Positions 11,421 to 51,064 of a DNA stretch of 64,000 nt are shown piece after piece. Origin of the DNA: Tenacibaculum ovolyticum DSM 18103 (GTDB lineage: Bacteria > Bacteroidota > Bacteroidia > Flavobacteriales > Flavobacteriaceae). The stretch's first letter is position 1. Each line of letters starts with the position of its first letter. The notes beneath the pieces were generated by a model. The model was given only the letters and a program-made list of their open reading frames with translations, was not told the DNA's origin and searched no databases. The stretch lies in the NCBI RefSeq assembly GCF_000430545.1, contig NZ_KE387163.1, positions 402,439 through 466,438 of the forward strand, read 5' to 3'. The position numbers and the translations under genes are program-made.

Positions 11421-11429
11421 TTACTATTG

Positions 11430-11536
11430 CGTTAGGGATTGCAGTGATATCCTTTTATTTGTCTCTTTGAGTCGAGTCGAAAAGTTATCAAATAAAAGAT
11501 TTAACGGAAAGCCCGACCCTTAGGGAACACCCTAAA
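11430..11536. repeat. Intergenic repeat-like element with two inverted repeats
   Basis: The 152-bp gap inside the nap operon holds a segment whose base use differs from its surroundings (GTTAGGGATTGCAGTGATAT, AGCCCGACCC). It contains a perfect 10-bp inverted repeat CTTTTATTTG (11452-11461)/CAAATAAAAG (11489-11498) and a small hairpin TTAGGG-aaca-CCCTAA (11520-11535). From memory, similar segments with a 'GGAAAGCCCGACCC' tail occur between many genes in Flavobacteriaceae genomes; I could not verify this. No second copy was seen in this window. Confidence 0.6.
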
Positions 11537-24634: not shown

Positions 24635-24658
24635 ATACTTAAACTACTAAAAAAGTAT
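24635..24658. promoter_or_regulatory. Inverted repeat between STAS and TPR/barrel genes
   Basis: ATACTT (24635-24640) and AAGTAT (24653-24658) with a 12-bp spacer. The stretch AAAAAAGTATAT is shared with the region upstream of the large membrane-protein gene (15516-15526). A shared regulator is possible but unproven. Confidence 0.3.
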
Positions 24659-24737
24659 ATGTTATCGATGAAAAACCATTTTATATCGTTCAATGTATGG
24701 ATGCTATTCCTTAACTTGCATACAACAACAAAAAAAT

Positions 24738-26864: not shown

Positions 26865-29306
26865 TTAATTAATAAGTAATTTTAAAGAATTATACTTTTT
26901 ATTATTGCTTATTATTTTACATATATACATTCCAGAAGTTAGATTTTCTCTACTAACAGGTATTAAATTACTACCAATTTCTGTTGAATAATTAGTTTTA
27001 TACACTAACTGCCCTAAGTAATTATATATGTTCAACTTAACTTCTTCATTTTGATCTGCTGTAAAGTAAATATTCCCAGAACTGTTTATTGGATTCGGTA
27101 TTGCCAAAATTTTATTTTTTTCTACTAAATTTTCATCAAACTGATTTGCTTTCAATCCAAAAGCAACATCATTAACTGCTATTGTAAATGGAACATACGT
27201 AGCGTAATCTCCTTGTAATGAGAAAACAATTGTTTTTATATCTGTAATTTCTCCAGGGTTTCCATTTTTATCAAGAAAATCATTAAAAGAAATAGTGTAT
27301 AATATTTCATTGTCATTTGCTGGTATTGTTATTCTTAAACGATTATCCCAATCAGTTATTCCGTCTTGAACTAATATAACTTCTACTGGTTTTGTATTTT
27401 GAATTTTAAACTGAATTGATTCATAATCTGACACATCTAATGTTTGGTCTCCCCCTAATACATGTCTAAACAAATTAATAGTTCCTTTTATTTCCCCACT
27501 TACTGTTGGCTCTCTTTCTATTTGATAAATATCTTCACTATTATCTTTATCATTATTTTCAATATTAAAAGAATTTACACTTACATTTTCTTCTAAATAA
27601 TCAATTCCCCAAGGCCCATCAGCTAAATACAATGCATCTTGTTGTTTTGAAGTATTTGTACTTAAAGAAAGTCCTATATCAAATAATTGACCTGTAGGAA
27701 TAATTATAGTTTCATTCCATTCACCTGTTAAATTAACAACTTCTGACATATTTATTCTATCTGAAACTTCTGTTCTAGCTAAAACAGCTTCAAAATTTAA
27801 AGAACTTGCTTTTGTTTTATTAATAATGTTTAAATGTATGTTTCCATTTTTGTAGTAACCAGAACTAACAAATACTGGTGGTACTACATCTTCTAATGAA
27901 GAGCTTTTTAATGGTTTAATTGATTTAAACGTATCTAAAATATGGTTACTAAGTGTAAAAACTTGAGAGAAAGAGCTTCCCCATACCTGGAAATTATAAT
28001 AATTTCCACTCGGATATTGTTCTATATTCCAAAAGCTAAATAATTCGTTTTCGGTATCTCCTAATTTAATTGAAAAACCTAATGTGTATTCTACTTCACC
28101 TGTAGCTCTTTTTATTTTAGAACTTATTACTTGATGCCCTCTAACGGTTACTGTTCTTACATCTTCTAAAACCGAATTATTTAATCGATCGCATATTTCT
28201 TTTGAATGATCATAAACATCTCCTTCTGTTGCTGTTGCCAAAACCGCTGAGATTCTCTCTTCTCCAGTATATAAATCAACCGAGAATATTTCCTTTGCAT
28301 TTGTAATCCCTAATAAATCTTTTGGCGTAGATACAAATGCATTTTCTGTACCGTACATTCCTGTAACTGGTAAAAAAGCTTCTATGGTAGATGGGTTTAC
28401 CCCTTTTGATAATAATTTAGTTTTCTTTTTATATCTTTTTTGTAACCTTTTTTTATTAAATAATTTACCATTTTTCTTACGTTTAAAATTTCTTTGTGCA
28501 ATTAAATTTGCCAATTTACCATTACTCTCTAATCCTCCATCGAATGCTGATGTTACATTTGTTGCACTAGATATATCTACAAAATTTGTAGCTGTTATTG
28601 CTGAGTATGGACTTGCTGTTATATAAAAAACGGCGTCGTTAAAATCATTATCACAAGAACCATAATCACGTCTAATGTCTTCAAATCCTAAAATTATTCT
28701 CTCATTATCTGGATCATTTAATAATACATTATGATTTCTTAAATTTACATCTGCTTCTGGGTTATAATCTGGATTTGAATATACCTTCCAATACCCATCC
28801 ATAACCGTACTATAATTAGCACTCCATGCATTTGCTAACAATACCCAGCCAATTCCTGTTCCGGCAGGAAAAGTTCCTATCTTCACCTTATCTCCAACCT
28901 GAAGACCTCCTCCACTTCCTAAAGCAGATGCATTTGGAAATATAATTGTTATATCTTCTGCTGCTGGCGCTGTTGCTGGTGGGTTATTAGCATCATAAGT
29001 ATAAAAACCTAATACATTTCTATAACCTGCTCCTTCACTAACAAAAGTTACGTACACTTCTGCTTCTTCTGTAATTGACAAATCTGTGTCGTAACCAGAA
29101 GATATATAATGTGGATTATAATCTGGCACGGGATAACTCTCAGGAAGAGAATTACTAATCATTTCTAGTGTTTCTACTGATACATCATCTCCAGGACTTT
29201 CTAAATAAAGAGGAGTTCCGTTTGATGTATAAGACCCTAAGTATTGATAGTTCTGAGCATAAATAGTCGTTGTTGCTATAACTAATAAAAATAATAATTT
29301 TTTCAT
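26865..29306 (-). CDS. Type IX secreted protein with DUF4114-like domain
   Basis: This 813-residue protein has a signal peptide (MKKLLFLLVIATTTIYAQ). An N-terminal region (about residues 60-235) contains GFEDIRRDYGSCDNDFNDAVFYI, typical of DUF4114. A large central beta-rich part follows. The C-terminal sorting domain (about 735-813) contains KILAIPNPINSSGNIYF and YNYLGQLVYKTN...LTSGMYICKI, so it is exported by the type IX secretion system. It is a paralogue of the next gene: both share the GGLESN-L-LI-RN linker, the STPKDLL/STPLDLV segment and the whole C-terminal half. It may be a matrix or surface protein linked to the polysaccharide locus. Confidence 0.85.
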   Translation of the reverse strand: MKKLLFLLVIATTTIYAQNYQYLGSYTSNGTPLYLESPGDDVSVETLEMISNSLPESYPVPDYNPHYISSGYDTDLSITEEAEVYVTFVSEGAGYRNVLGFYTYDANNPPATAPAAEDITIIFPNASALGSGGGLQVGDKVKIGTFPAGTGIGWVLLANAWSANYSTVMDGYWKVYSNPDYNPEADVNLRNHNVLLNDPDNERIILGFEDIRRDYGSCDNDFNDAVFYITASPYSAITATNFVDISSATNVTSAFDGGLESNGKLANLIAQRNFKRKKNGKLFNKKRLQKRYKKKTKLLSKGVNPSTIEAFLPVTGMYGTENAFVSTPKDLLGITNAKEIFSVDLYTGEERISAVLATATEGDVYDHSKEICDRLNNSVLEDVRTVTVRGHQVISSKIKRATGEVEYTLGFSIKLGDTENELFSFWNIEQYPSGNYYNFQVWGSSFSQVFTLSNHILDTFKSIKPLKSSSLEDVVPPVFVSSGYYKNGNIHLNIINKTKASSLNFEAVLARTEVSDRINMSEVVNLTGEWNETIIIPTGQLFDIGLSLSTNTSKQQDALYLADGPWGIDYLEENVSVNSFNIENNDKDNSEDIYQIEREPTVSGEIKGTINLFRHVLGGDQTLDVSDYESIQFKIQNTKPVEVILVQDGITDWDNRLRITIPANDNEILYTISFNDFLDKNGNPGEITDIKTIVFSLQGDYATYVPFTIAVNDVAFGLKANQFDENLVEKNKILAIPNPINSSGNIYFTADQNEEVKLNIYNYLGQLVYKTNYSTEIGSNLIPVSRENLTSGMYICKIISNNKKYNSLKLLIN

Positions 29307-29562
29307 AGTATATGTATTTAGTGTTTATACTATAAATTTAATCACTTATTAAAAACAAACTTAAATTACTAGTTATATGGTAATTAAAAATAGGTGAAAT
29401 GCAAACATCTTATGTTTAAGCAAAATCTATTTTTAAAAAACAATAAATATTACTTAATAATAAAGCTTTATATACTTGATTTTAAACAAAAAGGCATCAA
29501 TTATTATTTCCTATTATGTTTTATAAATAATCCCTCAAGAACTTCCTATATCATACATTAAA

Positions 29563-29607
29563 ATTTCACTTTTAAAATTAGTTGAAAACCAATTTTAAAA
29601 GTGAAAT
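29563..29607 (-). terminator. Terminator between the two type IX secreted protein genes; rest of gap appears empty
   Basis: ATTTCACTTTTAAAATT (29563-29579) and AATTTTAAAAGTGAAAT (29591-29607) are a 17-bp perfect inverted repeat after the stop at 29636. On the minus strand T-rich sequence follows. The remaining 29308-29562 is AT-rich with no supported gene and probably holds the promoter of the downstream gene. Confidence 0.7.
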
Positions 29608-29635
29608 ATATTTTGTTCTAATTAGATAATTATTT

Positions 29636-32233
29636 TTAATGAATCAATAACTTAACATTCTTGTAAGGTAATTTTTGACTTATTAATTTACAAAAATATA
29701 ACCCTGCTTTTAATGATTCTCTATTTAAAATTATTTTATTTTCACCTATCTTGGTTTTAAAATCTATTTTATATACTAATTTTCCTAATTGGTCATATAC
29801 AGCAAACTTTAAGTTTTCTTCCTCTTTTGCATTAAAATGAAAACTACTTTGTGCCGTCATTGGGTTTGGAGCTATAATCACATTATTTTCATTTCCTACT
29901 ATTACTACTGATGGTTTTTCTTCTTTAGAAAAGCGAATATCAGACAAGTTCATTTCTTTAGTTACACTACTACCATCTTTAGATGTCATGGTAAATACAA
30001 TTGTTACTACATCATCTAATACTAATTCATTTCCTTTTGATGATTTAAAATCTTTAAATGGTATTACATAACTCTCTAAAGAATTATTTAATACAATGGT
30101 TGATTTGTATTGCTCATCAAATGAAGAAATGCTTTTCTTTACAAACGTAATTTCTAAATTTCCAGTCCCTCTAGCTTTTAATTTAAAACTATTGTAATCT
30201 GTTAAATCTACTGGTTTAAAACGAGGTGTTAAAGCTCTGTATGCTGCAAAATAAGTACTTGTTGTTGCTGACAGTTGAACATTTCGTTCTATTGGAAATT
30301 CATTATCCTCAAATATAAAATCATTAGGTAATATTTTATAACTTGTTATTGATGTAGATGTTTCAGAATCATCTACACCCCAAGGACCGTCTGACATGAA
30401 TAAATCATCTGGAGTAGCAATACCATCACCAATTCTAAAACCAATATCAAATAAGTTTCCTGTTGGTACTTGTAAATTTGTTATATATTCTTTGCTTAAA
30501 TCGATTGTTGATGTTGAGTTCTTAAAATCACTTGTTTCTGTTATTCTATAACCAGCATCGAAATTTACATTTTCACTTGCATTAGTATTTACTACTTGTA
30601 AATCTAATGAACCATTATTATACTTCCCTTTTCTTACAAATACTGTAGGGGGCGTTGAAATTTTATAAGTAGAAATTGGTTTTTCTATATTTAATAAACT
30701 TACCACTTCTTTACCTAATGAATATAAATCATCTAAAGAATTTGACCATATTTGAAAATTATAAAAAGTAACATCTGCTTCATACTTATCTAAATTCCAA
30801 TGACTTTCTATTTCGAAATTGGTTTCGCTGTTTACAACCTTTGCTGAAAGACTTAATACAAACTCTACTGTATTATCGGCATTTTTAATTAAAGATTTAA
30901 TAAACTGCTGTCCATTTATTTCTATTGTTGACACAGAGATTAATTGTGCTCCAAGCAAACGATCACAAATATATTTAGTGTGCTCATATACACCGTTTTC
31001 TGTTTTTAAAGCCATAATTGACGCTATAGCAGTTCCACTTTTCATATAATCTACTGCATAAATAGCTGTTGCATTTGTTATTGCTACTAAATCTAAAGGT
31101 GTAGATTCAATTGTTACATCTTCATTTATAATTCCTAAAGGTATAAAGTCTTTTAACTCAAAACCTGTTGCTTTTTTTCTTTTATAGTCCTTCGTTTTTA
31201 TAACTCTAGCTGCTTTACTACGATCAAATTTATAATTGATTTTTGTACGATTATAATTTCTTTTATTTATAAGCTCTGATAATCGACTGTTACTTTCTAA
31301 ACCTCCTTCATTTCCTCCTGAAGTTGGTGGTAAAATAACATCACACTCTCCATAACCTGAACATGAAGGGTCCTCACAATCAATTAACCCATCACCATCA
31401 TCATCTATTCCGTTATCACAAATTTCTTGAAGTACTGGTGCCGTAGGACAACGCGCTCCGTCATTACTCGCACTCGATGGTCCAAAAGCAAATAAGTTTG
31501 AATCCATATCATCTGAAGGACTTAAATCTTGAACACTTTGTATAACATAGATTGTACCTGTTTGGTTTGCTGATACATAAAATCTTCCTGAAGCATCAAA
31601 ATAAACTGCACCGTACGTATAATCCAAGCCTGATAATATTGGTACTTCCCCTAACGACTCAACAATACTCGTTGTTGGGTTAATACGATATAGTATATTA
31701 GAATTCTTTTCAACAGTGTATAAATTACCGTCAACTGCGTTAAAAGCCCAGTCATGAATACTTATATTTTGAGATAGACTTTCTGTTGCTAAATGTTGAC
31801 TATATGTTGCTGAATTCGGATCTAGATCTATTTTATAGTAAGTTGTTCCTCCTCCTTTAAGGTAATAAACACCTGTAGCACTTATGTCTCCAACATATCT
31901 ATTATTACTAGGTAATTCATCTATATAAAAGGTTGTTGTTGAAAAATCATTTCCAATTCGTACTATTGTTTTGGCTGGAGAACTTAATGAACCCCATATA
32001 AAACCATCCGCGGGGTTATAAGCAGCTGCATTTATACTTCCTGGAGTAACATCTTCTGCTACAAGATAAGAGTTACCCGATGCTAAATCAATAGAATACA
32101 CATCGTTATATTGGAATAAGTATGCATCATAAACACAATTAAAAGGAGTATTTTGTGCATTTAATGCTATACTGAATAAGAGTAGTAGTAATAATAATAA
32201 ATTGGGGGTCGAGTTAGTAGTTTTTCTTTTCAT
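29636..32233 (-). CDS. Type IX secreted protein with propeller-like N-terminus and MopE-type motif
   Basis: This 865-residue protein has a signal peptide (LLLLLLLFSIALNAQ). A region at about residues 30-260 resembles the DUF6923 beta-propeller (DAYLFQYNDVYSIDLASG, HDWAFNAVDGNLYTVEKN). Next is an acidic EICDNGIDDDGDGLIDCED motif (about 270-288), which probably binds calcium. The central and C-terminal parts are homologous to the neighbouring 813-residue protein and end in a type IX sorting domain (VIIAPNPMTAQSSF...LKAGLYFCKL). It lies 106 bp downstream of the LytTR regulator gene, with a hairpin between, so it may be under that regulator's control. Confidence 0.85.
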   Translation of the reverse strand: MKRKTTNSTPNLLLLLLLLFSIALNAQNTPFNCVYDAYLFQYNDVYSIDLASGNSYLVAEDVTPGSINAAAYNPADGFIWGSLSSPAKTIVRIGNDFSTTTFYIDELPSNNRYVGDISATGVYYLKGGGTTYYKIDLDPNSATYSQHLATESLSQNISIHDWAFNAVDGNLYTVEKNSNILYRINPTTSIVESLGEVPILSGLDYTYGAVYFDASGRFYVSANQTGTIYVIQSVQDLSPSDDMDSNLFAFGPSSASNDGARCPTAPVLQEICDNGIDDDGDGLIDCEDPSCSGYGECDVILPPTSGGNEGGLESNSRLSELINKRNYNRTKINYKFDRSKAARVIKTKDYKRKKATGFELKDFIPLGIINEDVTIESTPLDLVAITNATAIYAVDYMKSGTAIASIMALKTENGVYEHTKYICDRLLGAQLISVSTIEINGQQFIKSLIKNADNTVEFVLSLSAKVVNSETNFEIESHWNLDKYEADVTFYNFQIWSNSLDDLYSLGKEVVSLLNIEKPISTYKISTPPTVFVRKGKYNNGSLDLQVVNTNASENVNFDAGYRITETSDFKNSTSTIDLSKEYITNLQVPTGNLFDIGFRIGDGIATPDDLFMSDGPWGVDDSETSTSITSYKILPNDFIFEDNEFPIERNVQLSATTSTYFAAYRALTPRFKPVDLTDYNSFKLKARGTGNLEITFVKKSISSFDEQYKSTIVLNNSLESYVIPFKDFKSSKGNELVLDDVVTIVFTMTSKDGSSVTKEMNLSDIRFSKEEKPSVVIVGNENNVIIAPNPMTAQSSFHFNAKEEENLKFAVYDQLGKLVYKIDFKTKIGENKIILNRESLKAGLYFCKLISQKLPYKNVKLLIH

Positions 32234-32288
32234 GATATTGTTTTATACCATCAATTTAAGAAATTTCTTTTAAAAACTACTTTTTTTT

Positions 32289-32332
32289 CGTTATAAACAA
32301 CTGATTTATAGATGAGTTGTAATTTTATAACG
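32289..32332 (-). terminator. Hairpin after the H-NOX operon
   Basis: CGTTATAA (32289-32296) and TTATAACG (32325-32332) with an inner pair CAACT/AGTTG (32298-32302, 32315-32319). It sits 7 bp after the LytTR gene stop. On the minus strand AAAAAAAA follows rather than U, so it may be only a weak terminator. Confidence 0.45.
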
Positions 32333-32338
32333 TTTATA

Positions 32339-33034
32339 TTATAATAAATTTAAACGTTTCATTAATTCTGGCCTGTTAGAACGACTTACTGGAATAACTT
32401 CCCTTTTTATAAGCACACTATTATCTTCAATATCAATAATTTTTTTAACATTAATAATATATGAACGGTGTATTTTAAGAAATAATGATTCTGGTAATTT
32501 TTCTTCTATCTTTTTTAAAGTAGAATGCACAACGTAATTTTTATTCTCAGTTTTTATATTAATATAATCCCCTTTGGCTTCTATAAGATAAATACTTGGT
32601 AAATCAATTTTTATAAGTCGCCTATCTATATTTACATAAAAATCATTTGTGTTTTCTGAAATTATTTCTGAAGCCTTTTCACTTTTATGTTTTTGAGCTT
32701 TCTTAATTGCCTTTTCAAATCGAGGAAACTCAACTGGCTTCAATAAATAATCTACAATAAAATCATATTCAAAAGCTTCTATAGCAAACTTAGGGTCTGA
32801 AGTAGTTAAAATTATTTTTGGAGGATTTTTAAGCGTTTTAATAAAATCTAAACCATTAAAGCTTGGCATGTGAATATCTAGAAAAATAAGATCTATATCA
32901 TTCGAGTTCAAAAACTTTATTGCATCCATTGCATTAGAAAATTCATCAACCACCTTTAAAGAGCTTATTTGATTGCAAAGAGTTTTAATAATAACTCTTG
33001 CTGTTTTTTCGTCATCTACAATAATACAATTCAT
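32339..33034 (-). CDS. LytTR-family response regulator
   Basis: This 231-residue regulator has a receiver domain (residues 1-120) with phospho-acceptor Asp53 (FLDIHMP) and Lys98-type KPVE. Its C-terminal LytTR DNA-binding domain (about 130-231) contains FYVNIDRRLIKIDLPSIYLIEAKGDYINI and LPESLFLKIHRSYIINVKKI. It is the last gene of the H-NOX operon, 4 bp after the Hpt gene, and is the only transcription factor in it. It is the likely transcriptional output of the relay. Possible targets include the two secreted protein genes directly downstream. Confidence 0.9.
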   Translation of the reverse strand: MNCIIVDDEKTARVIIKTLCNQISSLKVVDEFSNAMDAIKFLNSNDIDLIFLDIHMPSFNGLDFIKTLKNPPKIILTTSDPKFAIEAFEYDFIVDYLLKPVEFPRFEKAIKKAQKHKSEKASEIISENTNDFYVNIDRRLIKIDLPSIYLIEAKGDYINIKTENKNYVVHSTLKKIEEKLPESLFLKIHRSYIINVKKIIDIEDNSVLIKREVIPVSRSNRPELMKRLNLL

Positions 33035-33038
33035 AATC

Positions 33039-33356
33039 TTAAATAGTTTTCAAATATTCCGAAATAACTATTAAAATTTTCTCAAAATCTTCAACCTTAT
33101 CTAAATTAAGTTCTCTTAGATTATGTTCAAATTCATTAGCTATTTTATAACTTTTTTCAAGTCCTAAAATACTAATTTTATGTTTAAGTCTATGAACATT
33201 TTCTTCTATTTTTTTAAACTCCTTATTTTTTAAACTGTCATAATAGTCTTTTTTCTCTTCAGGAAATTCAGTTTTAATAACATCTATAAGCATTTTACTT
33301 ACTGATTCGTCTCCATTTGCTAACTTAGCAACATACTCTAAATTAGGTTTTTCCAT
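33039..33356 (-). CDS. Histidine phosphotransfer (Hpt) protein
   Basis: The ATG at 33356 (MEKPNLEY) is chosen, giving 105 residues and no overlap with the upstream kinase; an earlier in-frame ATG at 33416 would add 20 residues and overlap it by 58 nt. The domain is a helical Hpt module with the phosphorylatable His55 in VHRLKHKISILG. Hpt proteins shuttle phosphate between receiver domains. Its place between the second kinase and the LytTR regulator indicates that it links several receivers in this operon and perhaps elsewhere, such as the receiver-GT2 fusion at 14178-15377. Confidence 0.85.
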   Translation of the reverse strand: MEKPNLEYVAKLANGDESVSKMLIDVIKTEFPEEKKDYYDSLKNKEFKKIEENVHRLKHKISILGLEKSYKIANEFEHNLRELNLDKVEDFEKILIVISEYLKTI

Positions 33357-33358
33357 AA

Positions 33359-34402
33359 TTATTTTTTTATTGTAAAATGAAAGGTAGAACCTAATTTTAA
33401 TTGAGATTCTATCCAAATATTACCTTTATAAAGGTCTATAATTTTTTTAACAATAGATAATCCTATTCCTGCAGATTTGTAATCATTCTCTAATTTAGAA
33501 AAAGCTATGAAAATTTTCTGAAAGTATTTTTCTTCAATACCTTTTCCGTTATCTTTTATATAAAATTTCCAAAAATCAGCATCTTCTGAAAAACCTATTT
33601 CTATTTTTATATTCTTTTTGTCATTAAATTTAATTGAATTATCAATTAAATTTAAAAACAATTGCTCTATTCTGTTCTCGTCTCCCTTTATGTTCGGTAA
33701 CTTTTTAGGAATATCTATATTTATATTATCAGGTAAGTTTAATTCTTTTTTAATCGTTTTTAATAATTTATCTAAATCTAAATTAGATCGTTTATGTTCT
33801 TCTTTATCAATAGTAGAATACTTATGAATTGCTCTTACTAAAGTATCAATTTTCTGAGTATTCTCTCTTATTAGTTCTATTCTGTCTTTCCCTTCATTAT
33901 CTAACACCTTACCATAATCTTCCCTAAGCCAAACAGACAAAGCTTCTATATTTTGTATTGGTGTTTTTAAATCATGAGAAATCATATGAGTATAATCATT
34001 TAACTCCTGATTCTGTTGTTCCAAACTTTTTAATAATGAATCTTTTTGTTTATTTATTTTAATAATCTCTTTCGTTTGATTATCTATAAAATCAACTAAT
34101 TTTAATGAATCTGAATTTTCTATAGGCTTATCTTGTTCTAAATCGTAAAACTTAAGAGTATCAATTACACTTTTAAGTTTTTCTATAACTTTTCTTTGAG
34201 AATTAGTTTCTTCCTTTAATTTTTCATTTGCATCAAAAAGTTCTTCAGAACTTATCGCTGTAGCTCTTTGCAACATTGCAAATTGATTTTCTGATGTCTT
34301 GTAAGACTTATCTATAGCATCTAAAAAAGTTTCTAACTTTTTATCTGATAACAATTCTTCAGGTAAATACTTTCTAATTTGTCTTTTTAAAAGTGAGTTC
34401 AT
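33359..34402 (-). CDS. Soluble histidine kinase (second kinase of the H-NOX operon)
   Basis: This 347-residue kinase has no membrane segment. The N-terminal helical part (residues 1-130) has RKYLPEELL and ATAISSEELFDANEKL, a stretch I associate with soluble flavobacterial kinases and their dimerisation coils. The HisKA box carries His143 (MISHDLKTP), and the ATPase part has NLIDNSIKF (N box), DNGKGIEEKYF and GIGLSIVKKIIDLYKG. No sensor domain is apparent, so its input is probably the FIST protein or H-NOX acting in trans. Its start overlaps the FIST stop by 1 nt. Confidence 0.88.
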   Translation of the reverse strand: MNSLLKRQIRKYLPEELLSDKKLETFLDAIDKSYKTSENQFAMLQRATAISSEELFDANEKLKEETNSQRKVIEKLKSVIDTLKFYDLEQDKPIENSDSLKLVDFIDNQTKEIIKINKQKDSLLKSLEQQNQELNDYTHMISHDLKTPIQNIEALSVWLREDYGKVLDNEGKDRIELIRENTQKIDTLVRAIHKYSTIDKEEHKRSNLDLDKLLKTIKKELNLPDNINIDIPKKLPNIKGDENRIEQLFLNLIDNSIKFNDKKNIKIEIGFSEDADFWKFYIKDNGKGIEEKYFQKIFIAFSKLENDYKSAGIGLSIVKKIIDLYKGNIWIESQLKLGSTFHFTIKK

Positions 34403-35547
34403 TATTCGCTAATTAGCGTTACAGTCATTGTTTGATTATGTAATTGACAATTATTTTCTCCATTAAACGGGGCTATCTCTCCATAAGAATAAAACCCGCA
34501 AAAGGTGGTTTGATTACCAATAACCTCTATTACCTCTTCTACCTCTTCTTCTACTCTTTGATCTAACACTAGTTTTCTACCAATACAACTAACTAAAATT
34601 GCCAATTGTGGTTTATTCTGTCTCAATTCATTTGCATTTATAGCTGCTATTTCTGCTGCATTAACAATATTATCTACATTAGTCATCATTAACTGTACTT
34701 TAGAATTTTCAAAAATATCTCCTGCTAATATCATTGAATTATCCTCTTCATTAATATTTAAAATTGTTCTAACAATAGACTGTTTATCATTTGTAGATTT
34801 TACTTTTAACGGATATAATAAAGCTGCTCCTGGTAATTCTTTAGAGTTCTCTCCTAAATATTTTTTGTATAAATCTAATGCTAATAAGTTATCTAGTTCA
34901 TATAAAATATTTCCTTTAGATTTTGTTACTATTCTTTCTGGACCAAAAGGTGTCCAACCTCCATTAATAGAAAAAGTTACTTCTAAAGATTCTCCATATA
35001 AACCTATCGCAACTATTTCTCCAGGTTTAGGGTTCTCATTATAAGACGATATCGTTTTCTCAAACCGTGCATCATCACCACATAAAGCACCTGTAATTAA
35101 CAAATTATCATTAGTAGCTGAATTCATTCCTTTTGTTAATTGACTACCATTTATAAAACTTCCTTCTGAAATAATAAATACATGCTTTAATCCTTCTTCT
35201 GAAAATTGATTAATTAATTCTTTACCAACTAAAAAACTATCTATTTTTGAATCTAAACTTGAATCTAAAAAATTGGTAGTCTTTATTACAAAATTACTTT
35301 TCTCAAATTCAATAGCTGTGATAGTTATAGTATTTTCATCAATAGATTCTGAAGAAATGTCTCCACAAGAAGAGCCAAATACAATATGACCGTCTTTAAA
35401 AATAGTTCTTATCTCTTCATAAATAGTCTCACTTTCTAATAAAAATCTATTCCCAAAAACTAAAACCAGAGGTTCTTTAAGTTTTATTTCTTCTGATAAA
35501 TATTTCCAATCAGAATTATTTTTTCTTTTAAGTTGTAATGTTTTCAT
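34402..35547 (-). CDS. FIST-domain sensor protein
   Basis: This 381-residue soluble protein has FIST_N and FIST_C domains and nothing else. Family marks include the early LVLVFGNRFLLE and HIVFGSSCGDI (about 60-68), GALCGDDARFEKT (about 152), GEIVAIGLYGESL, and the C-terminal FCGFYSYGEIAPF-----CQLHNQTMTV. FIST domains are predicted to sense small ligands, such as amino acids, in bacterial signalling. It lies between the two kinases (20-nt and 1-nt overlaps), so it likely forms one complex with them. Its ligand is unknown. Confidence 0.9.
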   Translation of the reverse strand: MKTLQLKRKNNSDWKYLSEEIKLKEPLVLVFGNRFLLESETIYEEIRTIFKDGHIVFGSSCGDISSESIDENTITITAIEFEKSNFVIKTTNFLDSSLDSKIDSFLVGKELINQFSEEGLKHVFIISEGSFINGSQLTKGMNSATNDNLLITGALCGDDARFEKTISSYNENPKPGEIVAIGLYGESLEVTFSINGGWTPFGPERIVTKSKGNILYELDNLLALDLYKKYLGENSKELPGAALLYPLKVKSTNDKQSIVRTILNINEEDNSMILAGDIFENSKVQLMMTNVDNIVNAAEIAAINANELRQNKPQLAILVSCIGRKLVLDQRVEEEVEEVIEVIGNQTTFCGFYSYGEIAPFNGENNCQLHNQTMTVTLISE

Positions 35548-37642
35548 TTAATTCTTTTTTTATAGTAAAGTAAAAAGTAGTTCCTTTATTAGGTTCACTT
35601 TCTAACCAAATATCTCCCTCGTTTAAATCAATTATTTTTTTAACAATAGATAATCCAATACCTGTGGAGTCTTTTCGTTTATTTAATGAGTGAAATACTT
35701 GAAAAATTTTATCATGATATTTTTTTTCGATTCCAATTCCATTATCTTTTATAGAAAACTGATGAAAAGTTTTCTTTTCACTGTAATCTATCTCTATAAT
35801 GCCAAATTCTTTATCACTAAACTTAATAGCATTACTTAGAAAATTCTGAAACAATTGTTGAAACTTAGTTTTATCTCCTTTAACTGTAGGTAGTTTATTT
35901 AATATATTAATTGATATATTTTCAGGTATAAATAATATTTTTTTTAGATCATTTAAAGTAATATTTAAATCAACTTCTTCTTTTTCTTTTGTTTCTGAAC
36001 CAGCACTAGAGTATTCTAAAACATTAGAAATTAACTTTTCCATAGTTTCAAGTGTAGTACCAATTAAATCAAAATTATCAAGTGTTGGCTTATCAAGTTT
36101 ACCTTCATTATCTGCTTTAATCCAAGAAACTAAAGCGTCGATACTTCTTAACGGAGATTTTAAATCATGAGAAACAATATGTGCATATTCATGTAACTCA
36201 TCATTACTTCTTTCTAATTGATTTAAAAGTTTAATATTTTTTAATTCTATTATTTTTCTTTCTTTTATATTTATTGCACTTTTAAACTGCATAGAAACTA
36301 AACTAGCAATATTTTCTAATGTTTCTAAATGTTTTTCTCTGTAATGATTTTTTTCTTTATGCTCAGAATCTATAACACCTATAACCTTACCTTCACTTAT
36401 TATTGGTACTGATATTTCAGAGAAACGTCTTTCATCTTCTATGATATACCTATCATCTTTAGAAGTATCATTAACAATTTCTCCTTTTCCTGATTTTGCA
36501 ACACTTCCTACAATTCCTTTACCAATAGGTAAAGTATATTCGTTTATAATTTCTCTATTTACTTTTAATCTATAAGAAGCTATTTGTTCTAATTTATTAT
36601 TATTGTGGTTTACTAAATAAATCACACAATCTTTAGACTCTAAATACTTCGCTATTATTTTAGTTACTTCCGATGCTATTTCATAAATATTATCTCTTCC
36701 TAATATAGATTTAGCAAGATCATTTATCATGTCAATAATTAATGTTCTTTCTCTTTTTAACGTAATATCTTCAATAAGTGTTACATGATACTTTATTTTA
36801 CCATAAGAATCTCTTACAGCATTTACATTTGTTTTAGTCCATAAAACAGAATCATTTTTTCTTTTGTACCTTTTATTTATAACAAAATTATCAATTATTC
36901 CGCTATCCATTTTTTCAAAATGCTCTTTAGATAATTGAAAATCTTCTTTAAAACAAACGTTTTTAATTGTTAATTGTAAAAGTTCTTCTTGTGAATACCC
37001 TAGAAAATTTTGAAAAACACTATTGGTTTTCAAAAAACGACCTTGTTCTGTAAGTGTTATTCCTAATGATGAATTCTCTACAATTACATCTAACTCTTTT
37101 TTTTGTTCTTCTATTAGTTCAGTCGTTTTTTTTGACTCTGTTATATTTCTAATTATTCCTTGGGCTGCAATTTTTTTACCTTTTTTATCATATATTAAAC
37201 TAGCGTTTATTTGAACCCATTTAACCTCTTTCTCTTTAGTTAAAACTCTAGCAGTATAATTTGAAAAGGATCCTGTTTGATACAATGCATTAAAAGATTC
37301 AAAAGCATAAACACTATCTTCTGGATAAATAAGATTTACTACATTTAATTTTTCTTTTGAAATATCATACCCAAAAAACTTAACAGCTGTATCATTCATT
37401 TTAAGAACATTACCTGTTAAGTCCATTATTATATAAGAGTCATTGATATTATCAAAGACTCCTTTTAATTGTGATGATTTTTCTTTTAATAATCCTTCGA
37501 GTTTTAAATTTGTTTCTTTTAATTCTTCAGATATTGAATACAAATCTCTAGACTTATCTTCTAATATTTTTTCAGCTATTTTTCTTGCAGCTTTCTCTCT
37601 TTTTAGAGCTCTTTCTAGTATATCAATTTTGTTCTGACTCAT
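35528..37642 (-). CDS. PAS-PAS-GAF histidine kinase, probable H-NOX partner
   Basis: This 704-residue kinase has no membrane helix. It has a coiled-coil start (residues 1-60, ERALKREKAARKIAEKILEDKS), PAS domains at about 60-175 and 185-297, a GAF domain at about 320-455, a HisKA box with His492 (IVSHDLKSP) and a HATPase with NFLSNAIKFSD, DNGIGIEKKYH and GIGLSIVKKIIDL. It directly follows the H-NOX gene (1-nt overlap). Stand-alone H-NOX proteins generally regulate the kinase encoded beside them, so this is the likely NO-responsive kinase. Confidence 0.92.
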   Translation of the reverse strand: MSQNKIDILERALKREKAARKIAEKILEDKSRDLYSISEELKETNLKLEGLLKEKSSQLKGVFDNINDSYIIMDLTGNVLKMNDTAVKFFGYDISKEKLNVVNLIYPEDSVYAFESFNALYQTGSFSNYTARVLTKEKEVKWVQINASLIYDKKGKKIAAQGIIRNITESKKTTELIEEQKKELDVIVENSSLGITLTEQGRFLKTNSVFQNFLGYSQEELLQLTIKNVCFKEDFQLSKEHFEKMDSGIIDNFVINKRYKRKNDSVLWTKTNVNAVRDSYGKIKYHVTLIEDITLKRERTLIIDMINDLAKSILGRDNIYEIASEVTKIIAKYLESKDCVIYLVNHNNNKLEQIASYRLKVNREIINEYTLPIGKGIVGSVAKSGKGEIVNDTSKDDRYIIEDERRFSEISVPIISEGKVIGVIDSEHKEKNHYREKHLETLENIASLVSMQFKSAINIKERKIIELKNIKLLNQLERSNDELHEYAHIVSHDLKSPLRSIDALVSWIKADNEGKLDKPTLDNFDLIGTTLETMEKLISNVLEYSSAGSETKEKEEVDLNITLNDLKKILFIPENISINILNKLPTVKGDKTKFQQLFQNFLSNAIKFSDKEFGIIEIDYSEKKTFHQFSIKDNGIGIEKKYHDKIFQVFHSLNKRKDSTGIGLSIVKKIIDLNEGDIWLESEPNKGTTFYFTIKKELNENITT

Positions 37643-38181
37643 TAATCTTGATTAATAACAAATTTTACTTCAGTACCATCTTCTTTTATTTTTTCTAAAA
37701 CAATTGTTGCCGTAGCATTAAAGTGTTCAAATGTTTTATTCATTAAACCAAGACCAAAATGATGCATAGCTCTACTAGACTTGTAAATCATTACTAATGA
37801 TTTATCTTTTCTATCTTTAATTACAAAAGTAGGTAGCTCTGCTTCTGGATAAATTTTTCTTACCTCTATATGAATATGATCTTCAATAGAGGCTAGCATT
37901 TCTATAGGATCTTTATAAGTTGCCAAAAGACCTGGATAGCTCTTTTCTATAACGCTAAAAAAATGCTCTGCATACACTAATAATAAATCATCTATAGATA
38001 TAGCTGTGTTTTTACTTAAATTTTCTAGTAATTGTAACATTTCAGAAAAGCTGTAAGTTCCTATTGATGTATATATACCTTCAGATTCTAATGTTGATTG
38101 AGAAATAATTTTATCTACCATCTCTAAACCAAATTTATCTTCTACCAAGTCTAAAAATTCAGTAAAAACTATGCCTTTCAT
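37642..38181 (-). CDS. H-NOX haem nitric-oxide sensor
   Basis: H-NOX proteins bind NO through haem and control a partner kinase or cyclase. The 179-residue protein is the normal size for a stand-alone H-NOX. The haem ligand is probably His104 in HIHIEVRKIYPEAELPTF (His102 lies two residues before). The haem-propionate motif YxSxR is present as Tyr133-Ser135-Arg137 (IYKSSRAMHHFGLGL). It is the second gene of a tightly packed operon and overlaps the next kinase start by 1 nt. The organism also encodes NosZ and Nap, so it would meet NO. No distal-pocket Tyr assignment was attempted. Confidence 0.93.
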   Translation of the reverse strand: MKGIVFTEFLDLVEDKFGLEMVDKIISQSTLESEGIYTSIGTYSFSEMLQLLENLSKNTAISIDDLLLVYAEHFFSVIEKSYPGLLATYKDPIEMLASIEDHIHIEVRKIYPEAELPTFVIKDRKDKSLVMIYKSSRAMHHFGLGLMNKTFEHFNATATIVLEKIKEDGTEVKFVINQD

Positions 38182-38183
38182 AT

Positions 38184-38597
38184 TTAATATTTTTTTAATT
38201 CATTCATGCTCCAATAAGATAAAACTGTTTCTATTTTTTCAACATAGTCTTCATATTTTAAAGGTTTTAAAATATAACCAGAAACTCCAATTCTATAACA
38301 TTCTTCTAAATCTTTTTGATTATCTGAGGTTGTTAGAATCACTGTTGGAATGTGTTTTAAATCATCGTTATTTTTTAATATTGTTAAAAATTCTATACCG
38401 TTAATTTTTGGCATGTTTAAATCTAGTAAAATTAAATCAGGTAAACTACTTTTTTCTTCTAAAATCTCAAGTGCTTCTTCTCCATTTTTTGCTTCACTAA
38501 TATCATGCTTAAGTTCTAAGGATGAATTAGTTCTTTTCATTTTCATTATTTCAATAATGTTATCTTCAATCAGTAAAATGTTTAGTCTTTTTTTCAA
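38184..38597 (-). CDS. CheY-like response regulator, first gene of H-NOX operon
   Basis: This 137-residue single-domain receiver starts at TTG (complement of 38595-38597); no ATG alternative lies near the conserved LNILLIEDN. Asp59 (LLDLNMP) is the phospho-acceptor, with acids Glu11-Asp12, Thr89/Thr90 and Lys111 (ILKPLKYED). It has no output domain and ends in a short tail (WSMNELKKY). As a lone receiver it may act as a phosphate sink or bind a protein partner. It is 2 bp upstream of the H-NOX gene. Confidence 0.9.
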   Translation of the reverse strand: MKKRLNILLIEDNIIEIMKMKRTNSSLELKHDISEAKNGEEALEILEEKSSLPDLILLDLNMPKINGIEFLTILKNNDDLKHIPTVILTTSDNQKDLEECYRIGVSGYILKPLKYEDYVEKIETVLSYWSMNELKKY

Positions 38598-38654: not shown

Positions 38655-38823
38655 AATTACATATGTTTAATTAATCTTTTCTATAGTTAAAATGCATCTA
38701 AGTGTAGATGAATAGTTTTCTTATTTAAAGAAATTTTATATAGTAACACTTTTAATAAAGTTCAAGGAAAATAGGAAGATCTTCTTATTATACTCTTTTG
38801 TTGTGTATATAAAAATAGTGTAA

Positions 38824-50308: not shown

Positions 50309-51064
50309 TTAATCAATCCAGTTTTTAAATTCTTTTACACGCTCTCTACTTACTATTATTTCAGTTTCTGTATAAGTGTGTAGTATTATTTTTAAACGAG
50401 AATTTGTATATGAAATAATGTCTTTTATAGCATTTATATGAACGATAAAAGTTCTATTAACACGAAAAAAATGTTCAGGATTTAATTGTTCTTGCCAATG
50501 CTCAAGAGAATGATCTATTAAATAATTTCTATTAGCGTTCGTATGAATGTAAGTTGATTTGTTTTCAGAATAAAAGCATTCAATTTCATCAACATGTATA
50601 ATCTTTATATGTTGACCAACCTTAATTGTAAAACGCTTTTTAAACTTTCTATCAACTGGGTTAATTAATAACTTTCTAATATCATCAATATTAACCTGTA
50701 CATCAGATTGTTTTATCTGGTTTTCTTTAAACTTATCTACAGCAACCTTTAACTCGTCTTCATCAAGTGGTTTTAATAGATAGTCAATTGAATTTAATTT
50801 AAATGCTTTTAATGCGTATTCATCGTAAGCTGTTGTAAAAATAATGGCTGATTTCACTTCTATTTCTTCAAATATTTCAAATGATAATCCGTCAGATAAC
50901 TGAATGTCTAAAAATATTAAATCTGGATGTTTGTTGTCTTGAAACCAATTAATAGATTCTTCAACAGAATGTAACATTGTTTGCACTTCTATATTTAATC
51001 CAGAAAGCATTCTACTTAAGCGTCTTGCTGCTGGTTTCTCGTCTTCAATAATAATAACATTCAT
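50309..51064 (-). CDS. LytR/AlgR-type response regulator (LytTR)
   Basis: This 251-residue regulator has a receiver (residues 1-118) with acids Glu7-Asp8, phospho-acceptor Asp53 (FLDIQLSDG) and a KPLDEDEL lysine. The LytTR DNA-binding domain (about 145-251) includes FTIKVGQHIKIIHVDEIECFYSENKSTYIHT and FFRVNRTFIVHINAI. It is the last gene of the operon led by the LytS-like kinase and the 2TM proteins, and would be that kinase's partner. Confidence 0.92.
   Translation of the reverse strand: MNVIIIEDEKPAARRLSRMLSGLNIEVQTMLHSVEESINWFQDNKHPDLIFLDIQLSDGLSFEIFEEIEVKSAIIFTTAYDEYALKAFKLNSIDYLLKPLDEDELKVAVDKFKENQIKQSDVQVNIDDIRKLLINPVDRKFKKRFTIKVGQHIKIIHVDEIECFYSENKSTYIHTNANRNYLIDHSLEHWQEQLNPEHFFRVNRTFIVHINAIKDIISYTNSRLKIILHTYTETEIIVSRERVKEFKNWID

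Follow-up and report, generated by a model that had tools for sequence, protein, structure and literature searches.

Two sensor–kinase pairs, H-NOX and FIST, in a conserved flavobacterial operon predicted to share one phosphorelay and a LytTR-type operator

We analyzed a stretch of 64,000 nucleotides from Tenacibaculum ovolyticum DSM 18103 (contig NZ_KE387163.1, positions 402,439 to 466,438; hereafter the window), with a G+C content of 25–34% along its length. It contains an operon of seven genes encoding a CheY-like receiver (RR), an H-NOX haem sensor of nitric oxide (NO), two soluble histidine kinases (HK1 and HK2), a FIST protein, an Hpt protein and a LytTR response regulator. Our analysis indicates that H-NOX with HK1, and FIST with HK2, probably converge on a single relay of receiver, Hpt and LytTR regulator, which would switch on the operon and surface proteins sorted by the type IX secretion system (T9SS). 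The anatomy of the operon, its conservation, the co-inheritance and co-replacement of its parts, and the operator as a sequence pattern are directly supported.

The operon and its conservation

All seven open reading frames (ORFs) lie on the minus strand with intergenic gaps, in order, of 2, −1, −20, −1, 2 and 4 nt (Table 1), confirming the tight packing described in an initial annotation made from the sequence alone. Its domain calls for receiver, H-NOX, PAS-PAS-GAF kinase, FIST, kinase with no visible sensor and LytTR were likewise upheld by Pfam, and its Hpt has a Pfam match just under the cut-off. Pfam found no sensor domain in HK2, nor did any of the seven proteins match EAL, HD-GYP or GGDEF at E 0.001. 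Stretches resembling transmembrane segments are likewise absent from all seven (19-residue hydropathy mean at most 1.36). The first receiver ORF starts with TTG, and the most likely start of Hpt is the ATG giving 105 residues (33039–33356). Sigma-70 and terminator scans remained at chance level. The unit reaches past the seven genes (32339–38597), with the predicted operator upstream and two T9SS protein genes downstream (26865–32233).

For comparison, we used the best 80 of 214 loci found by H-NOX similarity, all from Flavobacteriaceae. The order RR-HNOX-HK1-[FIST-HK2]-HPT-LYT is kept throughout, barring contig ends (L018, L019, L046) and rearranged loci (L026, L044, L070). RR was called in 79/80, Hpt in 77/80 and LytTR in 78/80, the gaps being the three contig ends and the Hpt-less L070. 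The initial annotation had named beforehand the lack of a conserved gene order as grounds for rejecting its proposal; the set of genes is found again in 80 loci. Median identities relative to the window were 0.82 for H-NOX (selected for), 0.76 for LytTR, 0.73 for FIST, 0.70 for RR, 0.57 for both HK1 and HK2, and 0.52 for Hpt. Searches of the window's own genome detected one H-NOX, one FIST and 35 HATPase_c matches, and H-NOX is present in 33 of 296 sampled genomes of the order. Among the matches listed in a literature search of open-licence papers, no study of a Bacteroidetes H-NOX operon and no case of H-NOX with LytTR was found.

The phosphorylation sites form a complete His-Asp-His-Asp set, with HK1 H492 (81/81), HK2 H143 (54/54), RR D59 (80/80), Hpt H55 (78/78) and LytTR D53 (79/79) all invariant; Hpt K58 is also kept in 78/78. 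H-NOX retains H104, Y133, S135 and R137 in 81/81, a proximal His and YxSxR motif that we take to be the H-NOX haem signature. The closest solved structures are PDB 6bdd (E 2.3e-98) and 6bde (E 7.5e-98). The H-NOX translation from the Kordia algicida OT-1 locus (L008), which has all seven genes, equals 6bdd residues 1–178 and is 84% identical to that of the window, and in 6bde a Gly replaces the hinge alanine; the two entries are thus the Kordia H-NOX, an ortholog of the window protein, and its hinge mutant. Their H-NOX chains bear the molecule name of an unrelated aldolase. The native alanine (A71) is retained in 78/81 H-NOX proteins, and a 2018 study by Hespen, judging by its title, reportedly concerns a native alanine hinge. 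From this crystallized ortholog, haem and NO binding is expected for the window H-NOX.

Pairing of sensors with kinases and joint replacement of sensors and kinase N-termini

Profiles of the kinase N-termini (residues 1–58 of HK1 and 1–100 of HK2) were trained on the fetched loci. There, an HK1 module immediately follows H-NOX in 80/80 cases, and 49/50 HK2 modules immediately follow FIST, the exception being L044. Held-out kinases were assigned to their best-scoring type. In raw counts, 22/28 of those after H-NOX were HK1-type and none HK2-type, 25/33 of those after FIST were HK2-type and none HK1-type, and 0/23 located elsewhere had either module. Once duplicates were dropped (L096, of training locus L002; L169–L174, the same genes as L176–L181; L175, the same gene as L131), the counts were 21/27, 18/26 and 0/22, respectively. 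In this held-out set, the 3.5-kb loci L082–L091 are replaced by the longer stretches L159–L168. In Azospirillum, too, kinases adjacent to FIST are matched by the HK2 profile (E about 1e-7).

The six H-NOX-adjacent exceptions all carry an HNOBA-domain kinase (6/6), preceded by an H-NOX unlike that of the window (35–50 bits with the operon H-NOX profile); the one tested, from L106, is nearest to Alr2278 and the beta-1 subunit of soluble guanylate cyclase (sGC). RR, FIST and HK2 homologues keep their order in all six genomes and are followed by Hpt and LytTR in five, while in L109 the Hpt and LytTR homologues lie upstream on the other strand, adjoining another kinase. The L109 genome (G231) has two H-NOX genes with equal scores, 57 kb apart. 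The cores of the HNOBA kinases fall in one clade with those of HK1 and HK2 (support 0.81), apart from hybrid H-NOX kinases of other families, and the HK1 and HK2 cores are themselves close paralogs. At the other sensor, FIST in L035, L040, L064, L066 and L071 is only about 20% identical, and the kinase that follows it has no HK2-type N-terminus. Judged from the sequences, sensor and kinase N-terminus are replaced jointly, with the kinase core retained.

FIST and HK2 are also gained and lost together: 54 loci contain the pair, 25 lack it entirely (the cut contig L018 among them), one has FIST alone (L046, at a contig end) and none has HK2 alone. Parsimony gave 12 changes on the H-NOX tree, with L018 coded as absent, and 12 on the LytTR tree. 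FIST was found elsewhere in 6 of 24 searched genomes without an operon FIST. The L070 genome has a separate FIST operon (L176, RR-FIST-HK2-HPT-LYT), and its H-NOX operon has no Hpt; L026 has the same split within one contig, with no space for Hpt between HK1 and LytTR. These split genomes show that the H-NOX and FIST cassettes are separable. In the remaining five of the six genomes with a FIST elsewhere, a hybrid kinase comes after FIST, combining an N-terminus of HK2 type (30–41 bits) with a core that scores only 91–97 bits, versus 314 in L176.

Further kinases were observed in or near the system. In L159 (4215–5600) and L161 (7917–9209), HK2 and Hpt are separated by a third kinase, with a GAF domain in L159 and none found in L161. 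Contig C5 of the window's genome (L131 / L175, 7000–8274) encodes a kinase of 425 residues that, judged by its sequence, seems to be anchored in the membrane. With the HK1/HK2 core profile its core reaches 236 bits, compared with 113 for the next of the other kinases tested from this genome, and it may feed the shared relay as an additional input.

A predicted LytTR operator before the operon and T9SS genes

The putative operator consists of two direct repeats, ATTCGTCGACACTTAA, with a period of 21 bp, a conserved core of about 9 nt and a spacer of about 12. It fits the published pattern of LytTR sites, described as two 9–11-nt repeats with an 11–13-nt spacer (PMC4847170). The site upstream of the operon is the best position on both strands of the window, and direct repeats were also found in the gap between lytTR and the T9SS gene. 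The two next-ranking operator-like matches of the window lie at 50731–50769 (+, 12.8) and 24656–24694 (−, 10.9). With a model trained on RR promoters only, 54/58 T9 promoters outscored the 99% level set by 3000 random control windows, and conversely 78/78 RR promoters, the window included, did so with a T9-trained model. In held-out loci, the RR promoter scored above all other tested 300-bp windows of its own locus in 14/16, a set without the duplicate L096 and without L097, where RR is not first. The positions of the sites relative to promoters were compared in 21 loci with a short lytTR-T9 gap and the window. A TAnnTTTG box, presumably the Bacteroidetes −7 element, was found in 16/22 of these short promoters, with the operator centre 60–62 bp before the box in 13 and 40 bp in three. 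Since AgrA repeats are also centred near −60 (PMC4227749), this spacing points to an activator's geometry.

The genes downstream of lytTR encode two T9SS-sorted proteins, T9a and T9b, which share a C-terminal region of about 560 residues (184/561 aligned positions identical, 33%). In the window's genome this region occurs in T9a and T9b only, the third match being 71 residues of sorting tail, and a PDB sequence search with T9a gave no match. Of 74 loci with room for one, 58 have a homologue of T9a or T9b after lytTR. In the sample of the order, the T9 module was detected in 14/33 genomes with H-NOX versus 10/263 others (Fisher p 2.5e-9, uncorrected for kinship); at most four first-look candidates were scored per genome, so the negatives are lower bounds. 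In the window's family (f1), all 11 genomes with the T9 module have H-NOX, and the 99% operator level is exceeded by 6/9 T9 genes that lie on a different contig or far away from the operon. The operator repeats predicted before the operon and T9SS genes are new relative to the initial annotation, and this shared LytTR-type operator points to a likely output that it missed, namely surface proteins together with autoregulation.

Table 1 Features of the operon and its surroundings in the window
Feature	Position	Strand	Evidence and remarks
Predicted operator upstream of operon	38675..38713	-	Score 23.8, highest of the 64-kb window with both strands scanned
RR, CheY-like single-domain receiver	38184..38597	-	PF00072 81.9 bits; D59 in 80/80
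H-NOX, haem NO sensor	37642..38181	-	PF07700 (HNOB) 133.3 bits, cut-off 25.5
HK1, soluble kinase, predicted H-NOX partner	35528..37642	-	N-terminal coil + PAS-PAS-GAF + HisKA/HATPase (Pfam)
FIST protein (NosP superfamily)	34402..35547	-	PF08495 FIST_N 134 bits, PF10442 FIST_C 124.3 bits
HK2, soluble kinase, N-terminal module = predicted FIST partner	33359..34402	-	HisKA-HATPase (Pfam)
Hpt, H55	33039..33356	-	PF01627 22.9 bits, cut-off 24.6
LytTR response regulator, D53	32339..33034	-	PF04397 76.5 bits, PF00072 69.7 bits
Weak operator match upstream of T9a	32279..32317	-	Score 4.2, eighth row of window listing
T9a, T9SS-sorted secreted protein, likely regulated output	29636..32233	-	Por_Secre_tail; starts 105 nt downstream of lytTR
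T9b, T9SS-sorted paralog of T9a	26865..29306	-	DUF4114 + Por_Secre_tail

A Flavo-1 RNA (RF01705, 53.3 bits, gathering 42) at 11424–11522 of the window is unrelated to the operon.

Proposed relay, alternatives and related systems

In the proposed mechanism, ligand-bound H-NOX would set the activity of HK1, toward either kinase or phosphatase, through the N-terminal coil of HK1, and the FIST protein would set that of HK2, in one direction or the other, through the HK2 N-terminal module. HK1 and HK2, having one type of catalytic core, would both phosphorylate D59 of the CheY-like receiver, from which the phosphoryl group would pass to H55 of Hpt and on to D53 of the LytTR regulator. The latter is predicted to bind the two repeats, which lie at constant spacing ahead of the promoter, and would thereby activate, rather than repress, the operon itself and the T9SS-sorted surface proteins. 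The order from kinase through receiver and Hpt to LytTR is supported by family f7, in which H-NOX is followed by a fusion of kinase, receiver domain (REC) and Hpt (Hpt 25.1 bits in L168 and 23.4 in L167, cut-off 24.6). In L167 a LytTR regulator gene lies directly after the fusion; in L166 a LytTR gene follows an HK-REC protein whose tail Pfam does not call Hpt. A candidate natural HK-REC-LytTR fusion in the draft genome of L111 (9260–12460) was rejected, its linker (residues about 700–840) reading as a frameshift. Downstream of its H-NOX operon, L104 (10950–13239), from a genome in the genus of the window, carries Hpt-LytTR duplicated in tandem.

The initial annotation had proposed a branched relay that integrates two sensors. 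Integration is borne out by the gene order, the invariant phospho-sites, the co-presence of FIST and HK2 and the joint replacements. Branching was rejected in favour of convergence: in 23/25 loci without FIST, HK1 is still followed by Hpt and LytTR (the exceptions are the cut contig L018 and L070), and the two kinase cores are paralogs.

Several observations weigh against a convergent relay with T9SS output. The comparison loci were picked by H-NOX similarity and are mutually related, so the locus counts are not independent events. Neither module was found in 8/33 held-out kinases after FIST, all among the distant FISTs L113–L122, and some FIST-adjacent hybrid kinases weakly match the HK1 module (15–22 bits, versus 37–41 for the HK2 module), because of which the two modules may be distantly alike. 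The score of the window Hpt is marginal (Table 1). L044 (3245–10810) has a FIST-HK2 pair upstream of RR, and its operon contains a further HK2-type kinase that is not immediately preceded by FIST. L092 and L093 have RR-HNOX-HK1, with Hpt and LytTR not found in an 18-kb stretch, so the relay is not always co-located. This last arrangement also favours the alternative that the operon holds two separate pathways, H-NOX/HK1 acting on the CheY-like receiver, which could then address, for example, the gliding machinery, and FIST/HK2 acting through Hpt on LytTR. Single-domain receivers can act on machinery, receiverless kinases could in general phosphorylate either regulator, and the H-NOX operons of L026 and L070 include RR and LytTR and lack Hpt. 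However, Hpt and LytTR are retained after HK1 in nearly all loci that lack FIST-HK2 (the 23/25 above), the FIST operons of L026 and L176 have an RR, Hpt and LytTR of their own, HK1 and HK2 have closely related cores, and HK-REC-Hpt fusions occur beside H-NOX. We regard two separate pathways as unlikely.

As for the output, the first training of the operator model was circular, the fair tests being the cross-trained and held-out ones, and two held-out loci, L106 and L109, have no standout operator. No operator was found upstream of T9b in the window, and the T9a site is weak (Table 1), scoring −6.0 with the RR-trained model, between the 95% and 99% control levels. An adjoining T9 gene is missing in 16/74 loci, and the operator in 3/9 f1 T9 genes located elsewhere and in all T9 genes of family f7 (0/4 with operator). 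The T9SS genes might accordingly be no targets at all, the shared repeat resulting from promoter duplication or mere adjacency. Against this stand the match of 54/58 T9 promoters to a model trained on RR promoters only, the fixed spacing to the −7 box, and the retention of the site by 6/9 T9 genes elsewhere in the same family. We regard this explanation, too, as unlikely.

Two views of the FIST ligand are each compatible with a convergent relay. FIST belongs to the superfamily of the NO sensor NosP, and could therefore be a second NO sensor. The operon would then read NO twice, for example in two concentration ranges. NosP-NosK looks alike in that a sensorless kinase adjoins the FIST gene (PMC12570481), and H370 is the only one of the three histidines of the window FIST that is invariant in 50/50 canonical FISTs, being retained in many distant ones as well. 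On the other hand, H370 is a Tyr in the five replaced FISTs and is not conserved in L123 or L157, and the window FIST scores 47.1 bits against the NCBIfam NosP equivalog, below the cut-off of 450. This cut-off was passed by none of the 70 Bacteroidota genomes with a NosP-profile match (395 searched), a weak negative since the same search missed the window's own FIST. A literature search of open-licence papers did not return the NosP haem ligand among the matches listed.

Alternatively, FIST may bind a small metabolite rather than haem, and the operon would combine NO with a metabolic signal, as the initial annotation envisaged. The FIST domain has been proposed to be a small-ligand binder. An AlphaFold2 model (27 rows, pLDDT 92.4; an earlier model from 10 similar rows, pLDDT 38.9, was not used) is closest to the FIST region of human FBXO22 (Z 22.7, root-mean-square deviation 3.4, 263 aligned), followed by chorismatase (Z 13–15) and cyanuric acid hydrolase (Z about 11), and a PDB sequence search with FIST gave no match. 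However, a common fold reveals no ligand, and the bacterial FIST-kinase pairs described in the two sources consulted are NO/haem systems (PMC12570481, PMC6769237). We consider either ligand plausible, each at somewhat below an even chance and neither ahead of the other. The integration of two sensors proposed in the initial annotation is well supported, and its further claim that FIST brings in another signal need not hold, since FIST shares its superfamily with the NO sensor NosP.

The operon is a variation on known H-NOX and NosP signalling. In Vibrio harveyi, H-NOX/HqsK signals through LuxU to LuxO, and in Vibrio cholerae NosP/VpsS signals to LuxU (PMC6769237). As here, a cytosolic sensorless kinase is under a stand-alone haem NO sensor, and a single Hpt, fed by several kinases, phosphorylates a regulator. 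As described there, the Vibrio systems have hybrid kinases and a LuxO/quorum-sensing output, whereas the window has H-NOX and FIST in a single operon, a receiver and an Hpt encoded as individual proteins, and a LytTR protein as output regulator. NosP-NosK-NosR of Burkholderia (PMC12570481) and nosP-nahK-narR of Legionella (PMC11237717) likewise place a FIST gene beside a soluble sensorless kinase; here the NosP cut-off is missed, and the relay ends in Hpt and LytTR instead of a regulator of the cyclic di-GMP type. A genome-neighbourhood network placed FIST genes near 'group 1' H-NOX, with no relay, operator or output described for them in the portion of that account consulted (PMC8738867).

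Two other networks are similar in layout. In the HnoK/HnoB/HnoD network of Shewanella, H-NOX also adjoins a soluble kinase; the present operon differs in having no EAL, HD-GYP or GGDEF domain. The Spo0 phosphorelay likewise keeps several kinases (KinA-E), a single-domain receiver (Spo0F), a phosphotransferase (Spo0B) and a DNA-binding regulator (Spo0A) as separate proteins; the present operon differs in its LytTR output and gas-sensor input, and the likeness drawn here is one of architecture.

A broader and more tentative idea, which we hold with considerable reserve, is that the fixed receiver-Hpt-LytTR relay with its operator may serve as a plug-in hub. Sensors, each with its kinase N-terminus, would be exchanged in nature as cassettes with the kinase core kept, and two haem NO sensors in one operon would control T9SS surface proteins. 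The cassettes would comprise H-NOX with the coil, sGC-type H-NOX with HNOBA, canonical FIST with the HK2 module, divergent FIST with another N-terminus, and the third kinase of L159 and L161.

The proposed mechanism is testable because both natural swaps and an operator exist. The natural domain swaps point to the docking segment of each kinase, and may help to explain how stand-alone H-NOX and FIST proteins contact their kinases, while the predicted operator makes target genes directly testable. The structurally solved Kordia H-NOX would gain a complete predicted pathway, from gas to gene, and gas sensing would be linked to the T9SS surface proteins of marine flavobacteria.

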